Of a stretch of DNA of 64,000 bases, positions 29,116 to 64,000 are shown piece after piece. Position 1 is the first letter of the stretch. Every line of letters starts with the position of its first letter. The notes under the pieces were generated by a model that saw only the letters and a program-made list of their open reading frames with translations, ran no database searches and was not told the origin of the DNA. Source of the stretch: Planctomycetota bacterium (GTDB taxonomy: Bacteria > Planctomycetota > UBA8742 > UBA2392); NCBI GenBank assembly GCA_020848275.1, contig JADLAK010000018.1, forward strand, positions 26,685 to 90,684, read 5' to 3'. The position numbers and the translations under genes are program-made.

Positions 29116-30189
29116 ATGGCCGTTAAAGATGAAGCCGCCGCACGCCGTCTGCAGGCCGTCGACATGGCCCTGGCGCAGATCGAGAAATCCCACGGCAAGG
29201 GCTCGCTGATGAAGCTTGGCGACCGCCCGGCCATTGAAATCCCGGGTATCACCACGGGCGTGCTTTCGATCGACCTCGCGCTCGGCGGCCGCGGGGTGGC
29301 GCGCGGGCGCATTACCGAAATCTACGGGCCGGAATCCAGCGGCAAGACCACGCTGGCGCTGCACGTCGTCGCCAACGCCCAGCGGCTGGGCGGGCTTGCG
29401 GCGTACATCGACGCCGAACACGCGCTCGACCCGGCCTATGCCAAGGCGTTGGGCGTGGACATAGACAACCTTTACGTCAGCCAGCCCGACAGCGGCGAGC
29501 AGGCGCTCGACATCTGCGAAACGCTGGTCCGCAGCAACGCGTTCGACACGATCGTGGTCGACTCCGTTGCGGCGCTGGTGCCCAAGAGTGAACTCGAGGG
29601 CGACATGGGCGACGCGCAGATGGGTTCGCAGGCGCGCCTGATGAGCCAGGCGATGCGCAAGCTGACCGCGGCGGTTTCGCGCGCACACACCGCGCTGATT
29701 TTCATCAACCAGATCCGCATGAAGATCGGCGTGATGTTCGGCAACCCTGAAACCACGACGGGCGGCAATGCTTTGAAGTTCGCGGCGTCGGCGCGCGTGG
29801 AAGTGCGCCGTGCGGCGCCGATCAAAGTCGGCGACGCGGTCGTGGGCCACGAGACCAACGTCAAGATCGTCAAGAACAAGCTCGCGCCGCCGTTCAAGGT
29901 CGCGCACGTGGAGATGATTTTTGGCGAGGGAATTTCGCGGCTGGGCGACCTGCTTGAGCTCGGCGCGCAAAGCGGCGTGGTGAAACGTTCGGGCGCGTGG
30001 TGGATTTACGGGCAGACCAAGCTTGGCCAGGGCAAGGACAACGCCAAGCAATTCCTGCGCGAGAACGCGGACATCGAAAAGCAGCTCGACAAGGAAATCC
30101 GCGAGGCGCTGGCGATGAACACTGCGAGCGGTGAACGGCAAGAAGCCAAAGCCGAAAGCAAAACGCCGGAACACAGCGGCAAACGTTAG
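29116..30189 (+). CDS. recA: RecA recombinase
   Basis: The 357-aa product is full length. It has the N-terminal polymerisation helix, Walker [11 protein letters not shown] (about residues 73-82), the catalytic Glu region [11 protein letters not shown], Walker [13 protein letters not shown], the L2-flanking segment [28 protein letters not shown] and an acidic/basic tail. It catalyses strand exchange and promotes LexA-type autocleavage. The 48-base leader has the SD-like GGAGAAC and no recognisable LexA box. A family 6 palindrome follows the stop. Confidence 0.98.
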
Positions 30190-30196
30190 GAAACAA

Positions 30197-30261
30197 CTTA
30201 CACGGATGGGCAGGATAGACAGGATAAAGCCAATCCTGTTGATCCTGTCCATCCGTGTAAG
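30197..30261. repeat. Intergenic word palindrome, family 6 (GGATGGGCAGGATAGACAGGAT-type)
   Basis: Two 29-base arms (30197-30225 and 30233-30261) pair with only three mismatches around a 7-base loop. The left arm includes ACACGGATGGGCAGGAT and the right arm includes ATCCTGTCCATCCGTGT. It sits just after recA and could act as its terminator. Confidence 0.85.
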
Positions 30262-30273
30262 CTTTTAATTGGT

Positions 30274-30302
30274 TTGGCGGTTTGGCGTTTTGACGGTATT
30301 AA
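30274..30302 (+). promoter_or_regulatory. Candidate sigma-70-type promoter for alaS
   Basis: TTGGCG and TATTAA are separated by 17 bases. This would give a leader of about 130 bases before the alaS ATG at 30437. The leader has no obvious riboswitch; it holds a CCGTCGGCGGG stem near 30382. Prediction by eye only. Confidence 0.35.
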
Positions 30303-30436
30303 TGTGTGCATGAAACGCGCGACGAATATTTCTGGTTGGAGCGCCGAGCGGCGAGCTAGATAGCGGCAAACGCTATCGTCCTGCCGTCGGCGGGACAATT
30401 TATACGACCGCTCGCTGAGCAATCTGGAAGACCAAC

Positions 30437-33400
30437 ATGAGTACCGTCAATCACATCGAAGTGCGTGATCGTTTTTTGAAGTTCTTTGACCGCAAATTCC
30501 GCGAATGGGCCAAAGCCAAGGGCGAGGACCCGGCCAAGCTGCCGCAGATGATCCTGCCGGCATATTCGCTCGTGCCCGATGACCCGTCGACGCTCTTTAC
30601 CACGTCCGGGATGCATCAATTTAAGGATGACTTCACCGGTAACTTAAAACATGGAACCAAGCGCGCGACGACGTGCCAGAAGTGCATGCGCACGCCCGAC
30701 CTCGAGAACGTCGGCAAGACCGCGCGCCATCACACGATGTTCGAGATGCTCGGCTTTTTCTCGTTCGGTGATTACTTCAAGAAGGAAGCGATCGCCTGGA
30801 TCTGGGAGTTCTACACCGTCGAGATGAAGCTGAGCAAAGACAAGCTGCGCATCAGCGTCTATCAGGACGACAACGAAGCCTACGAACTCTGGGCCAAGCT
30901 CGAACCGTCGCTCAAGCAGAAGAACTGGATCTATCGCTTTGGCGAGAACGACAATTTCTGGCCCGCAGGTTCGCCCTCGCAAGGCCCCAACGGCGTGTGC
31001 GGCCCGTGCAGCGAAATTTTCTATGACCTCGGCGCGAGTTATGACAAACCCACGCTCAATGGAGCGGACGACCCGAGCAACAACGGCGACCGTTTCATGG
31101 AAATCGGCAACATCGTTTTTACGCAGTTTGAACGCAGCGGCCCGATTCCCGGCAAAGGCACGCTGACGCCGCTTCCTGCGAAAAACATCGACTTCGGTGG
31201 GGGTCTCGAACGCCTGATTGTCGCGCTCGAGAACGTACCGACGACGCTCGACACCAGCCTGTTCACGCCCGTACGCGAAAAAATGCGCGCGCTGCTCGGC
31301 AAACCCGCGCCGCAAGTCGGCGGCGACGAAAACGTGCGCGAAAAGCGCATCGCCGATCACATTCGCGCTTCAACGTTCCTGATTGCCGACGGCGTGGTAC
31401 CCAGCAACGAAAAGCAGGGCTACGTGCTGCGCCGCGTGCTGCGCCGCGCCTATCGCGACGGCAATAAACTTGGTTTTAAAGGCCCGTTCTTGCACAAGCT
31501 GGCGCGGCCGATTATCGACACGTTCGGCGATGTGCCGGATTACCGCAACCTGAAGGAAAATCCTGCGGCCATCGAAGGGGCGATCAAGCAGGAAGAAGAA
31601 GCCTTCGACAAAGTGCTCGCCCGCGGCCTCGAAAAGGTCAACGCGCTAATCGCCGATCTCAAGAAGCGCGGCCAGAAGGTTCTCGACGGCGCGCTCGCGT
31701 TTGATCTGCACTCGACCTACGGCCTGCCCGTGGACGTCACACGTGACGAACTCACTGAAGCGGGTTTCACGCTAGACGAACCCGGCTTTGAAGCCGCGTT
31801 CGACAAGTTCCGCGAAGACAGCCGCAAAGCCGGCGGATTCAGCGGCGAGGTTTTCGACAAGGGCTGGTTCGCGCAGCTCAAGGCCAAGGCCAGGCCGACG
31901 GAATTCCTGGGGTACCAGACTTCGCGCGCCGCGGGCAACGTCGTCGGCATTTCGCACAACGAAAATCTGGTCGATTACATCCGCGAAGGCAGCACGGCGA
32001 CCGTGATCCTCGACAAGACGCCGTTCTACGGCGAATCGGGCGGCCAGGTCGGCGACAGCGGTGTTTTGCAACTGCCCGGCGGCAAATTCATCGTTGCCGA
32101 TACCAAGAAGAAGGAAGATTACATCCTTCACGTCGGCAAACTCGAAAGCGGCAAGCTGTCCACGAGCGACACAGTCGAGGCGATTGTCGACGATGCCCGC
32201 CGCACGCAGATTCGCGCCAATCACTCGGCGACGCACCTCATGCATGCGGCGTTACGCAAAGTCCTGGGCGAACACGTCGTCCAGCGCGGCAGCGAAGTTG
32301 CGTCCGACCGCCTGCGCTTCGATTTCACGCACACCAAACCGGTGAGCTGGGACGAGCGCCGCGAAATCGAGCGCATCGTCAACGAGCAGATCGTCCACAA
32401 CGCCGACGTCTGCACCGACATCATGTCGCCCGACAAAGCCCGCGAAGCCGGCGCCATGGCGCTATTCGGCGAAAAGTACGGCGATCGCGTCCGCGTTTTG
32501 AGCATGGGCAGCATGTCGGACGTCCCGTCCGACGGTAGCGCGGGCTTCCAGCCCGCAAAGGGCGCATTGGACATCCGCGACCGCGGTTACCTGCCCCATT
32601 GGGAGAAGCTCGGGGCAACATATTTCGTCACCTTTCGTCTCGATGATTCACTTCCCGAAAGCGTCAGGAAGGCTCTTGAGTTCGAGCGCAAGGACATTGT
32701 GCTGACCGCCGAGCAAGTTGGCAGGCCCCTGTCGGAATCTGAATTGGATCGACTCGACCATCTGTATTCGGAAAAGATGGAGGATGTCCTCAATGCCGGC
32801 CATGGGGCGTGCCACTTACGCCGCGCCGATTGCGCGAAAATCGTTTCTGACGCATTCAAACACTTCGACAAAAAACGGTACGACCTCTTCGCGTGGGTGG
32901 TTATGCCCAATCACGTCCACGTAGTGTTTTGCCCCTATGACGGTGAAAAGCTTGCCGACATCATGCACTCGTGGAAATCATTTACTGCAAAGGAGTGCAA
33001 CAAAGTCCTGGGTCGTGAAGGAATCTTCTGGCAACCGGAGTATTTCGACCGGCTGATTCGCAACAAGGCAGAGTTCGCCAGGAAAGTCACGTACGTCGAA
33101 CAGAACCCTGTTGTGGCCAAATTAGGGAATTGGGATTGGGTCTGGACGTTCGAAATGCAAGCGGCCGGGACGGCCGCGCTACCTGCGGGCCAGAGGCCCG
33201 CGAATTCCGAGACGCCTGCAACACCTGCGGGCCTGAGGCCCACATCACGTGCGGCCGAGACGGCCACATCACAACGTCCGTTCTCGCGCGAACTTTGCGG
33301 CGGCACGCACGTCCGCCGCACGGGCGACATCGGTTTGTTCAAGATTGTGAGTGAAGGCTCATCGGCGGCCGGCGTGCGGCGTATCGAAGCCGTGACCGGC

Positions 33401-33931
33401 ATGCGCGCGGTGAATGCTATGCAGGCGGAATCGGACGTGATCGCGCAACTCGGCGCGTTGCTGAAAACGCCGCCGGACAAAGTCCTGGCGCGGGTTGAGG
33501 CCATGCAGAAGGAAAACCGCGAGCTGAAATCCGCGGGCCCGAAATCGGCCGGGATCGACGCCGGGGCGCTGGAAAAACTCCGCACCGGGGCGCAAACGGT
33601 TGGCGGCGCGAAGGTTATCGTTGCAGAACTTCCGGTGGGGGATGCCGCCGAGTTATTGACAATCATGGAGTCTCTGCGCCAAGATGCTCCGCCCCACGCG
33701 GTTCTGTTGGGCGGTAAGGCGGAAGACAAGGCCATGTTGGTCGTGGGTTTTTCGCCTGAACTGGTCAAACGCGGCCTTCACGCGGGCAAGCTTATCGGCG
33801 AAATCGCCAAGCTTGTCGGCGGCGGCGGCGGCGGCAAGCCGGAGCATGCACAGGCCGGCGGCAAGAACCCGCAGGGGCTGCCCGAGGCGTTGAAGCTGGG
33901 GCAGGAACGAATTTTGAAGGCATTGTCGTAG
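30437..33931 (+). CDS. alaS: Alanyl-tRNA synthetase interrupted in frame by a RAYT transposase domain
   Basis: The 1164-aa ORF is a full AlaRS: class II catalytic core (TTSGMHQFKDDFTG, FEMLGFFSFGDYFKKEAI), tRNA recognition helices, editing domain and C-terminal DHHA1-like domain with a Gly-rich segment. The editing-domain zinc ligands are split, HSATH upstream and CGGTH downstream. Between them is an extra 251-residue block (698-948) that is a complete REP-associated tyrosine transposase. Without the block the protein would be 913 aa, near the usual ~880. After VLSMGSMSDVP the expected FSRELCGGTHV follows only beyond the insert. Both halves stay in frame with no stop codon. It is the only alaS in view, so the chimera is probably translated and may charge tRNA-Ala; editing function is uncertain. 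Confidence 0.95.
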   Translation: MSTVNHIEVRDRFLKFFDRKFREWAKAKGEDPAKLPQMILPAYSLVPDDPSTLFTTSGMHQFKDDFTGNLKHGTKRATTCQKCMRTPDLENVGKTARHHTMFEMLGFFSFGDYFKKEAIAWIWEFYTVEMKLSKDKLRISVYQDDNEAYELWAKLEPSLKQKNWIYRFGENDNFWPAGSPSQGPNGVCGPCSEIFYDLGASYDKPTLNGADDPSNNGDRFMEIGNIVFTQFERSGPIPGKGTLTPLPAKNIDFGGGLERLIVALENVPTTLDTSLFTPVREKMRALLGKPAPQVGGDENVREKRIADHIRASTFLIADGVVPSNEKQGYVLRRVLRRAYRDGNKLGFKGPFLHKLARPIIDTFGDVPDYRNLKENPAAIEGAIKQEEEAFDKVLARGLEKVNALIADLKKRGQKVLDGALAFDLHSTYGLPVDVTRDELTEAGFTLDEPGFEAAFDKFREDSRKAGGFSGEVFDKGWFAQLKAKARPTEFLGYQTSRAAGNVVGISHNENLVDYIREGSTATVILDKTPFYGESGGQVGDSGVLQLPGGKFIVADTKKKEDYILHVGKLESGKLSTSDTVEAIVDDARRTQIRANHSATHLMHAALRKVLGEHVVQRGSEVASDRLRFDFTHTKPVSWDERREIERIVNEQIVHNADVCTDIMSPDKAREAGAMALFGEKYGDRVRVLSMGSMSDVPSDGSAGFQPAKGALDIRDRGYLPHWEKLGATYFVTFRLDDSLPESVRKALEFERKDIVLTAEQVGRPLSESELDRLDHLYSEKMEDVLNAGHGACHLRRADCAKIVSDAFKHFDKKRYDLFAWVVMPNHVHVVFCPYDGEKLADIMHSWKSFTAKECNKVLGREGIFWQPEYFDRLIRNKAEFARKVTYVEQNPVVAKLGNWDWVWTFEMQAAGTAALPAGQRPANSETPATPAGLRPTSRAAETATSQRPFSRELCGGTHVRRTGDIGLFKIVSEGSSAAGVRRIEAVTGMRAVNAMQAESDVIAQLGALLKTPPDKVLARVEAMQKENRELKSAGPKSAGIDAGALEKLRTGAQTVGGAKVIVAELPVGDAAELLTIMESLRQDAPPHAVLLGGKAEDKAMLVVGFSPELVKRGLHAGKLIGEIAKLVGGGGGGKPEHAQAGGKNPQGLPEALKLGQERILKALS
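32540..32556. repeat. Left REP hairpin of the alaS insert
   Basis: GCGGGC, loop TTCCA, GCCCGC, preceded by GGTAGC. The 10-mer GGTAGCGCGG at 32534 is matched by its complement CCGCGCTACC at 33174-33183, so the ends are in inverted orientation. Confidence 0.85.
33161..33267. repeat. Right REP hairpin array of the alaS insert
   Basis: Four hairpins lie in series, all translated in frame. GCGGCC/GGCCGC is at 33161-33177. GCGGGCC/GGCCCGC is at 33185-33201. GGGCC/GGCCC is at 33229-33241. GGCC/GGCC with GAGAC loop is at 33252-33265. Two hairpin types alternate (GGCC-GGAC-type and GGGCC-type), as in bacterial interspersed mosaic elements. Confidence 0.85.
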
Positions 33932-33971
33932 GGACACGCGGCAGCGTGTCCGCGGAAACCGGAGTCATGCA

Positions 33972-34160
33972 ATGGCTACACCGAAAAAACGCAGTTCGAA
34001 ATCGCGTCGCAACACGCGCCGCTCGCATCACGCCCTCAAGCTGCCCCACCTTGGCAAAGATCCCAAGACCGGCGCGCCCAAGCTGCCCCATACCGTCTGC
34101 GAAGACAGCGGCTACTACGGCAAGGAGAAGCGCGTCTTCGTGGTCGAGGAAAAGCTGTAA
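33972..34160 (+). CDS. rpmF: Ribosomal protein bL32
   Basis: The 62-aa product starts MATPKKRSSKSRRNTRRSHH, the standard bL32 start, and ends with a KRVFVVEEKL tail. It has a single Cys (HTVCEDSGYYG) rather than the four-Cys zinc ribbon, so it appears to be a largely zinc-independent form. It opens the classic rpmF-plsX-fabH-fabD-fabG cluster. Confidence 0.95.
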   Translation: MATPKKRSSKSRRNTRRSHHALKLPHLGKDPKTGAPKLPHTVCEDSGYYGKEKRVFVVEEKL

Positions 34161-34175
34161 TCGGGGAGAGCAGCC

Positions 34176-35201
34176 ATGCCGCGGATTGCCGTGGATGCAA
34201 TGGGTGGAGACAACGCCCCGGGCGTTGTCGTGCGCGGCGCGTACAAATACGCGCAGACGCAACCCGATCACCAGGTCATTCTCGTTGGCATCGAGGACAA
34301 AGTCGCCCCGGTGCTGGCGCAGTGCGGCCCCGCGCTCAAGAACATCTCGCTGGTACATGCTCCTGATGTGATCGGGATGGACGAGCATCCGCGCGACGCC
34401 CTGCGCAAAAAGAAGCACAACTCGCTGAGCGTCGGCTGCGACCTTATCCGCCAGGGCAAAGCTGACGCCGTGCTCAGCGCCGGCAACACCGGCGGCCTGG
34501 TCATGGCGGCCACGGTAATCCTGCGCACGCTGCCGGGCGTGATGAAGGCCGGCATCGCGACCACGCTGCCCACCGTCAAGGGCCGCATCGTGATGATGGA
34601 CGTCGGCGCCAACGTCGAGACCAAGCCCAATCATCTGCTGCAGTATGCGGCGATGGGCGAAATTTTCTACCGCGCCCTGATGCCTGCGCGCGAAAAGCTG
34701 CGCGTCGGCTTGCTGACCGTCGGCTCTGAAGAAGGCAAAGGCAGCACCGTGATCCGTGAGGCCCACGCGTTGCTCACGCAAAGCGGCTTGAGTTTCTCGG
34801 GCAACTGCGAAGGCAACGACATCTTCGAGGGCAACTTCGAAGTGGTTGTCTGCGACGGCGAGCTTGGCAACGTGGTGCTCAAAACCGCCGAGGGCATCGC
34901 CGACGCGATCACCAAGCTGCTGATGGGCCACGTGAAGGCCGCGGAACTCGCGACCGACCCGCGCTGGGCCAAGGCGGCGGGCGGCCTGATGAAGGACATC
35001 GACTGGCGCGACGTCGGGGGCGCGGTGTTGCTTGGCGTGGGCGGGACTGTCGTGATTTCCCACGGCCGCAGTGACGAGCGTGCGATTTTCTCGGGCATCC
35101 GTGTGGCCGCCGAGTGCTGCCAGCACAAGGTCAACGAGCAGATCGTCAAGGTGCTGGAGTCGCAGAAGGCCAAAAGCGGCGCCGGCGTCACACCGGCGTA
35201 A
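34176..35201 (+). CDS. plsX: Phosphate acyltransferase PlsX
   Basis: The 341-aa product starts IAVDAMGGDNAPGVVVRG, the PlsX hallmark. It continues with LSAGNTGGLVMAA, DVGANVETKP and a C-terminal GAVLLGVGGTVVISHGRS. It makes acyl-phosphate from acyl-ACP, the acyl donor for PlsY in phospholipid synthesis, at the membrane surface. It follows rpmF by 15 bases, with a GGGGAGAG ribosome-binding site. Confidence 0.97.
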   Translation: MPRIAVDAMGGDNAPGVVVRGAYKYAQTQPDHQVILVGIEDKVAPVLAQCGPALKNISLVHAPDVIGMDEHPRDALRKKKHNSLSVGCDLIRQGKADAVLSAGNTGGLVMAATVILRTLPGVMKAGIATTLPTVKGRIVMMDVGANVETKPNHLLQYAAMGEIFYRALMPAREKLRVGLLTVGSEEGKGSTVIREAHALLTQSGLSFSGNCEGNDIFEGNFEVVVCDGELGNVVLKTAEGIADAITKLLMGHVKAAELATDPRWAKAAGGLMKDIDWRDVGGAVLLGVGGTVVISHGRSDERAIFSGIRVAAECCQHKVNEQIVKVLESQKAKSGAGVTPA

Positions 35202-62699: not shown

Positions 62700-62810
62700 T
62701 CGTTTATCAGTTGCCAGTTCTCGGTAGCCAGCAGTCGGCAAAAAACAACCCGCGTTCCAGGTGGGGCTTTTGCTGACAACCGACAACTGAACACTGATAA
62801 CTGGCTACTT
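62700..62810. repeat. Intergenic word palindrome, family 1, second copy
   Basis: The left arm holds TTATCAGTTGCCAGTTCTCGG and the right arm ACAACCGACAACTGAACACTG followed by ATAACTGGC, variants of the family 1 word seen at 1589. The right arm runs into the stop codon of the minus-strand lipoprotein gene. It lies between convergent genes. Confidence 0.7.
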
Positions 62811-63701
62811 CTTTTCTTTGTTGTACTTGTCCAGGCGCTCGAGGTAGATCGCGCCCCACGGATCGTCGTCGCCGATTTCGAACTCGCTCCAGTCCTTATG
62901 CGCGGCGTCGAGTTTGCGCTGGTCGGCGGGCGACAGCACGCGTGAAATTGCTTCACGGTTCTGCTTCTTGAGGTCTTCCACGGCCTTGACGTAACTGCGG
63001 CCCTGCGGGTCGCCGGGCACTTTCTCGCTCGAGAGCTCCAACAGCAGCTTGCCGAAGCGTTCGTCGGCGCCCTGTTCCTTGGCGCCGATGCGAATCAGCG
63101 TATCGATGACTTCCTCGGCGGGAACGCGGCCGTTGTGCATCGGGATTTCCAGCAATTCGAGCATGTCTTTCTTGGTCTTCTTGACCTCGTCGCGGATCGC
63201 CGCCTTTTCGGCGTTGCTGATGTTCAGCCGCTCCATTGCGTCGGCAAAATTCTTGGTCGGTGTGGCGGATTCCTGCTGTTCGGCGAGCTTCTTGTCCACA
63301 ATCGCGGAGATTGTCTTTTCATCGACGGCCGCGGGTTTCATCTCGGCCTTCGTCGCGGTTTCCTCCTTGATGCGCTCGACGCGGGTTTCGACCTCGGCGA
63401 GGCGCTTTTCCAGCCCCGCTTCGACCGGTTTGCCGGTTGCGCGCAGTTCGACGACATCTTTGCGCAGCGCCGCAATGTCTGCGCCGCTGTATCCACGCTC
63501 GAGTGCATCGAGCTTGTCTTCCAGCGCCTTAAGGCGTTGGGCGGCGTAGCCCTGCTGGCGCTCGGCGTCCGCGCGGGCGTCCTCAAGGGCGCCGCGCGTT
63601 GACGCGAGGTCGTCCTGCAGCGCGCGGATATCGGCGCCATGGTCTTTGCAGCCTGACAGCGCCAGCAACGCAACGGCGGCTAACGCAAGCATGATTCGCA
63701 T
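62805..63701 (-). CDS. Coiled-coil lipoprotein of unknown function
   Basis: The 298-aa product starts MRIMLALAAVALLALSGC with a lipobox (LSGC) at 63701. The mature part is a long coiled coil (about 20-130; IRALQDDLASTRGALEDARADAERQ). A helical, acidic domain follows (about 140-298) with SPADQRKLDAAHKDWSEFE. It is probably anchored to the outer membrane and extends into the periplasm. The track ORF adds 91 codons of repeat shadow. No family recognised. Confidence 0.75.
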   Translation of the reverse strand: MRIMLALAAVALLALSGCKDHGADIRALQDDLASTRGALEDARADAERQQGYAAQRLKALEDKLDALERGYSGADIAALRKDVVELRATGKPVEAGLEKRLAEVETRVERIKEETATKAEMKPAAVDEKTISAIVDKKLAEQQESATPTKNFADAMERLNISNAEKAAIRDEVKKTKKDMLELLEIPMHNGRVPAEEVIDTLIRIGAKEQGADERFGKLLLELSSEKVPGDPQGRSYVKAVEDLKKQNREAISRVLSPADQRKLDAAHKDWSEFEIGDDDPWGAIYLERLDKYNKEKK

Positions 63702-64000
63702 AGGGTCTCCCTCAGAGCATTTTCGGACTTGCTGTAGCGGATTCTGCTTGCAGCGGGCGTCGCATCTCGGCGTCGGCCTCGCTGAGCGTGGCCCATAGAG
63801 CATTTTCAAGATTACCATGCCGGTTTCTGCTTGCGGCGAGGCGACGTTCGGAGCGTGCCGGAAAAGCGCCAGTGGCGCTTTTCCGGTGGGCATCTCTGCG
63901 TCGCGCTCGCTCAGCGTGGCTTCCAGCCACGCCGTCGCTCGCGCTTCTTGATCTGCTCGCTCGGCGCAGCGCATAAACTCGGCACACTAACCTTGAAAAA
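63702..64000. repeat. Direct-repeat units at the right end of the window
   Basis: AGAGCATTTTC opens two units about 80 bases apart (63714 and 63798). Each continues with a variant of TTCTGCTTGC and then CTCGCTGAGCGTGGC or CTCGCTCAGCGTGGC. A perfect hairpin GGAAAAGCGCC/GGCGCTTTTCC with two central bases lies near 63858-63881, inside the second unit. The stretch also has GCGTCGCGCTCGCTC. No gene is supported; the listed short ORFs here are repeat shadows. Confidence 0.6.

Follow-up and report, generated by a model that had tools for sequence, protein, structure and literature searches.

In-frame REP-associated tyrosine transposases within alanyl-tRNA synthetase and other proteins of Planctomycetota

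Introduction

The alanyl-tRNA synthetase gene (alaS) of a Planctomycetota bacterium carries, in frame and within its editing domain, a complete REP-associated tyrosine transposase (RAYT). The gene lies in a window of 64,000 nucleotides (the whole stretch of DNA analysed; contig JADLAK010000018.1, positions 26,685 to 90,684 of the forward strand, assembly GCA_020848275.1, hereafter G000). Judging from the sequence comparisons reported here, we put at about 0.7 the probability that the insert belongs to a lineage of REP-RAYT elements (REPtrons) that would live within protein-coding genes, being translated as a domain and not spliced out.

RAYTs have been described as stand-alone, vertically inherited single-copy genes, and in a model of REP/RAYT evolution insertion into a gene destroys that gene, insertion into an essential gene being lethal (PMC8049555). 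Translated REPs inside genes, including tRNA synthetases, have been reported (PMC3733652), as have in-frame REPs within the tnpA_REP genes of subclass 2.4, in a work that excluded RAYT proteins longer than expected, taking them for gene fusions or annotation errors (PMC6006769). Our literature search, with most subscription papers and preprints outside its scope, found no published description of RAYTs in frame inside other proteins.

Results

The chimeric alaS gene

The chimeric gene and its host parts are arranged as follows:

30437..33931, + strand: alaS chimera (alanyl-tRNA synthetase, AlaRS, with in-frame RAYT), 1164 aa, open from start to stop
30437..32509, + strand: host AlaRS, catalytic and first editing-domain part, residues 1-691, ending VRVLSMG (Pfam/NCBIfam, alignment)
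32222..32236, + strand: editing zinc site, HxxxH half, H596/H600 (sequence; conserved in the AlaRS alignment)
33281..33931, + strand: host AlaRS, resuming at FSRELCGGTH; end of the editing domain and DHHA1/C-Ala (Pfam, alignment)
33296..33310, + strand: editing zinc site, CxxxH half, C954/H958 (sequence)

The insert occupies residues 692 to 948 (32510-33280), with VRVLSMG on one side and FSRELCGGTH on the other. The equivalent loop is 3-7 residues long in most family members without the insert, and 1-2 residues long across most of the phylum, as in E. coli (alignment); net of the 3-7-residue linker, the insert amounts to about 250 codons. In a single protein, Pfam finds tRNA-synt_2c (8-587), Y1_Tnp (810-889), tRNA_SAD (948-984) and DHHA1 (1058-1157), in this order, and the NCBIfam alaS profile TIGR00344 scores 804 bits on the chimera. 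The catalytic, editing and C-terminal domains of AlaRS are therefore all present, with the zinc residues kept (Pfam, NCBIfam, alignment). These results agree with an earlier sequence-only reading of this DNA, which had proposed a complete RAYT of about 251 codons in a host frame open on both sides, with an intact AlaRS C-terminal domain. The same reading had placed the insert exactly between the two zinc halves: the order HxxxH, insert, CxxxH holds, and the boundaries lie about 90 residues after the first half and 5 before the second.

The insert had also been taken for a translated internal domain of an essential gene, a view to be given up if a second intact alaS, or decay of this copy, came to light. 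A translatable internal domain of a conserved gene is supported: the frame is intact and neither was found in G000 (a draft, 88% complete, in 111 contigs). Pfam and NCBIfam scans of the chimera detected no intein (Hint splicing) domain, and Rfam gave no match in 30100-34200, which, together with the open frame, leaves the insert outside the definition of a group I/II intron. Upstream, the recA-alaS gap holds an inverted repeat (window 30192-30266, 34-nt arms, 85% complementary) with GGATGGACAGGATNNACAGGAT, which is matched twice in the window where no match is expected, and looks like a dispersed repeat.

The RAYT domain

Within the insert, the transposase itself shows the following features:

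32591..33145, + strand: RAYT core domain, residues 719-903 (Pfam, NCBIfam, 4ER8 alignment, model, Foldseek)
32912..32920, + strand: HUH motif, H826-V-H828 (sequence, alignment to 4ER8)
33092..33094, + strand: catalytic tyrosine Y886, within KVTYVEQNP; its counterpart in the alignment is Y115 of TnpA_REP (E. coli, PDB 4ER8)
32567..32569, + strand: TTG at which the RAYT might start internally; purine-rich AAAGGG immediately upstream (putative function, from sequence)

Pfam Y1_Tnp is above its cut-off on the insert, while the NCBIfam profile REP_Tyr_transpos (NF047646) scores 78.8 bits on the insert alone, the curated cut-off being 80, and 88 on a related embedded copy (L244). The modelled domain matches 4er8_A in Foldseek (E 1.7e-6), identifying it as a RAYT fold. 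The HUH motif is the one already recognized in the sequence-only reading; the catalytic tyrosine, which had been sought in EYFDRLIR, is instead Y886 according to the 4ER8 alignment, Y115 being the catalytic residue of TnpA_REP. The RAYT of the insert lacks a stop codon of its own and has the possible TTG as its only start, and thus does not qualify as a stand-alone gene. In the source copy, the RAYT alone could also start at this TTG (32567).

REP ends, linkers and predicted structure

The RAYT core is flanked on both sides by REP palindromes, which are part of the coding sequence:

32510..32590, + strand: left linker, REP-encoded; residues 695-721 predicted disordered, pLDDT < 50 (model)
32517..32531, + strand: left REP-like palindrome CGGACG-TCC-CGTCCG, encoding SDVPSD
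32535..32556, + strand: left GTAG-tagged REP GTAGCGCGGGCTTCCAGCCCGC, encoding SAGFQPA
33146..33280, + strand: right linker, REP-encoded, Ala/Pro-rich; residues 908-944 predicted disordered (model)
33161..33265, + strand: right-hand REP array, with palindromes at 33161-33177, 33185-33201, ~33224-33243 and ~33251-33265

The palindromes at both ends belong to a genome-wide GTAG-tagged family: the REP pattern that GTAGCGCGGGCTTCCAGCCCGC fits has 41 exact matches in G000, compared with 0 for the reversed control pattern. In the AlphaFold2 model of residues 475-1164, the host and RAYT domains are predicted with confidence (most blocks at 82-98 pLDDT), the stretches below 50 pLDDT (around residues 695-721 and 908-944) being those encoded by the REPs; since the pTM is 0.58, the relative placement of the host and RAYT domains is undefined. 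A chimera of a FabZ paralogue (see below) gives a similar model, with confident domains and disordered linkers. Foldseek recovers AlaRS and 4ER8 from the first model, and FabZ (TMt 0.92) and 4ER8 from the second.

Many contigs of G000 (C2, C5, C21, C25, C67-C71, C101, C102, C109 and others) have a GTAGCGCGGGCGTCTCGCCCGC REP no more than 100 bases from their end, which suggests that a long repeat with REP ends breaks the assembly. Another palindrome, GCGTGGCTTCCAGCCACGC (window 63914-63932), located close to where an ORF on the minus strand (62805-63974) begins, is possibly a further intragenic REP.

Distribution and turnover of the alaS insert

Among the 16 genomes of the family that were compared (mostly draft assemblies), a RAYT occupies the identical alaS site in four (G000, G004, G007 and G014), and alaS is free of it in the other 12, including G008, the sister of G004. 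The possibility, raised in the sequence-only reading, that the insert is fixed in the lineage is thus refuted at the family level. G004 also has an intact chimera, and intact chimeras of 1164 aa and ~1170 aa occur in two genera; the gene of G007 has a frame break elsewhere, outside the insert, and that of G014 has three, one of them within the catalytic domain, which may reflect either sequencing error or decay. In G010, the site holds a REP-encoded peptide only. Homology stops exactly after ATGGGC (two pairs), whether two carriers are compared or a carrier with a non-carrier. The AlaRS of G007 and G014 (L044 and L043) has, elsewhere in the protein, a second REP-like peptide insert, with PAGRPGESTHARSESGSPALPGG in G007.

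When the insert is placed on the AlaRS host tree, three changes are needed, and these are forced even by the well-supported branches alone; additionally, a single clade of AlaRS-borne RAYTs is rejected (AU test, p = 0.015). On this sequence evidence, no fewer than three host lineages gained the insert, unless it was repeatedly lost. The comparison of G007 with G014 is more direct: the host parts of AlaRS are 97-99% identical and the RAYTs 60%, with nucleotide identity along alaS falling from ~92% to ~60% within the insert only. The same two genomes show this contrast in a FabZ paralogue, whose host part is 97% identical in amino acids (dS 0.22) and whose RAYT is 71% identical (dS 1.11). As the hosts are nearly unchanged and the RAYTs divergent, the RAYT was replaced, or newly inserted, in place.

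RAYTs in other host genes

A survey of 392 genomes of the phylum (~85 RAYT matches listed at E <= 1e-40) gave 24 RAYTs embedded in frame, in 9 host gene families and 19 genomes. One of the phylum's genomes contains 57 DUF1559/SBP_bac_10 domains, which are typical of planctomycetes and point to Planctomycetota as the probable phylum; G000 itself has none. Besides alaS, a host in the family is the FabZ paralogue, which bears an in-frame RAYT at one site in 10 of the 16 genomes (loci L063, L064, L062, L065, L066, L068, L070, L072, L075 and L076; one copy is N-interrupted). The remaining FabZ paralogues of the family have a REP-only linker or no insert, the fabZ of G008 being a REP-only insertion. 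Genomes with the RAYT-bearing paralogue also have a canonical FabZ, and the paralogue is therefore not the sole copy; its tolerance of a RAYT is less surprising because the canonical FabZ stands beside it. The other hosts are:

FAD-monooxygenase/OYE protein: G012
PurH: G018
N6/N4 DNA methyltransferase: G019
PglX-like methyltransferases: G051, G381
DUF1156 methyltransferase: G381
Eco57I/TaqI_C restriction-modification proteins: G381, G178, G086
DinG-like helicase: G153

The methyltransferase (PglX-like, DUF1156, Eco57I/TaqI_C) and DinG-like helicase loci are L243-L249, three of them in G381 alone. Long RAYT ORFs without a clear surrounding host (G127, G028, G196 and G007:C14) were excluded from the embedded count, and N-terminal RAYT fusions in a single open frame, seen for MoeA (L252:3643-5556) and for a TPR protein (L251:2051-3745), were kept apart. 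A plasmid search returned distant RAYTs only.

This range of hosts bears on the proposal, made from the sequence alone, that the chimera may represent a selfish strategy or a new fusion linking DNA-hairpin recognition to a tRNA synthetase. A selfish strategy stands as a possibility. Anything specific to AlaRS or to tRNA charging is disfavoured, because unrelated genes (FabZ-like, PurH, DinG-like, FAD/OYE and DNA-methyltransferase) contain in-frame RAYTs of the same kind.

Embedded and free RAYTs compared

In the RAYT tree, which is weakly supported in places, the RAYTs carried by AlaRS and by FabZ group together and apart from six free RAYTs of the family; the support for this group (93/87) is not decisive. 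All the free RAYTs stop within 14 codons past the core, and most have an ATG 12-16 codons before it. The embedded ones, with the exception of the N-rich G015 copy, have no stop within 80 codons downstream (it is absent from all intact copies tested), and most of them lack a nearby ATG. The HUH and tyrosine residues are kept in all embedded RAYTs compared, and dN values of 0.17-0.37, with dS above 1 or saturated, indicate purifying selection.

Discussion

In the mechanism that we propose, a REP-RAYT element would enter a permissive loop of a conserved gene, in the same reading direction as the host and, lacking a stop, with the host frame kept. The REP palindromes (DNA hairpins recognized by the RAYT) would be translated as flexible linkers rich in Ala, Gly and Pro; the host would fold around the RAYT domain and still work, and the RAYT would be expressed from the host gene. 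Because the element is stop-free and does not shift the frame, synthesis of the host protein would continue, with the RAYT as an added domain; and because the host would fold around the RAYT and keep working, insertion into a conserved gene would be survivable. What can be read from the sequences directly is the intact frame, the REP ends, the repeated gain at a single site, the many host genes and the purifying selection; from these we infer production of the full-length chimera, with an AlaRS that is still active and a RAYT that still nicks REP DNA, the insertion having presumably occurred by RAYT transposition and not by recombination. We lean slightly towards the stronger proposal of a RAYT lineage specialized for life within proteins. 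Its REP-RAYT cassette would be stop-free and frame-preserving, with palindromes that act as recognition hairpins in the DNA and encode the flexible linkers of the protein, and it would enter the same permissive loops time and again, much as an intein without splicing. Survivor bias, with only the in-frame insertions in conserved genes persisting, could possibly mimic such a specialization.

A related account is that RAYTs insert everywhere and that the in-frame, stop-free copies in permissive loops simply survive, without a specialized lineage and without benefit to either side. It fits with the alaS site, which in relatives without the insert is a short linker that varies, with the REP-only insertions at such sites (G010 alaS, G008 fabZ) and with the intragenic REPs already known (PMC3733652). 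Nevertheless, we consider it unlikely, given the grouping of the embedded AlaRS and FabZ RAYTs apart from the free ones of the family (93/87), the missing stop codon in all intact embedded copies tested and the purifying selection on the RAYT coding sequence. The missing stops, together with the missing ATG near the core of most embedded copies, also make it rather improbable that the RAYT is translated separately (from the TTG at 32567, which does have the purine-rich AAAGGG just upstream) or freed by proteolysis, with AlaRS acting as two pieces.

A single ancestral insertion into alaS, lost in most lineages and with a RAYT that evolves fast or is exchanged between alleles, would explain the identical site in three lineages, and its losses could leave REP scars like that of G010. 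The rejection of one AlaRS-RAYT clade (p-AU 0.015), the 60% identity of the RAYTs in the near-identical hosts of G007 and G014, and the presence of the insert in G004 and not in its sister G008 make this history very unlikely. Domestication, where the RAYT domain would give AlaRS a new function (e.g. binding of hairpin DNA or RNA), might be read from the purifying selection and the conserved catalytic residues; it is highly improbable for an element that occurs in unrelated hosts, is missing in 12 of 16 close relatives and is rapidly turned over in place. Scarcely credible, and the least probable of all, is that the chimera arose in the assembly or that this alaS is a decaying pseudogene: the source genome is a draft (88% complete, 111 contigs) and frame breaks occur in the copies of G007 and G014, but intact chimeras of 1164 and ~1170 aa occur in two genera, the host residues are conserved, a second alaS was not found in G000 and embedded RAYTs are present in 19 genomes.

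The occurrence of a transposase in housekeeping proteins, repeatedly at the same sites and with the frame unbroken, contrasts with the model in which insertion destroys the gene (PMC8049555). If the REP-RAYT interpretation is true, it would give a mobile element a route to protect itself from loss and would help to explain the spread of REPs in coding DNA. Additionally, the chimeras are natural domain-insertion experiments in AlaRS, FabZ, PurH and DNA methyltransferases, and some of the database records regarded as fusions or annotation errors may be embedded RAYTs.

Inteins with homing endonucleases are in-frame residents of conserved genes that recur at one site and carry a DNA-cutting domain. 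The embedded RAYT is likewise an in-frame resident recurring at one site; unlike inteins, it has no splicing domain detectable by Pfam and, as far as can be told, is not removed. With RAYT/TnpA_REP and REPtrons, the insert shares the HUH motif and tyrosine, the RAYT fold (4ER8) and the flanking GTAG REPs, and it differs from the RAYTs described so far (PMC8049555) in lacking its own stop and in being carried within a host protein. As with intragenic REPs and Rickettsia palindromic elements (PMC3733652), palindromic DNA is translated in frame in conserved genes, tRNA synthetases included; those elements, however, are up to ~80 residues long and bring no enzyme, whereas this insert carries a whole transposase. 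Finally, as in the subclass 2.4 tnpA_REP genes with in-frame REPs (PMC6006769), the REP insertion keeps the reading frame; there, the REP lies inside a RAYT, and here the RAYT lies inside a host gene.
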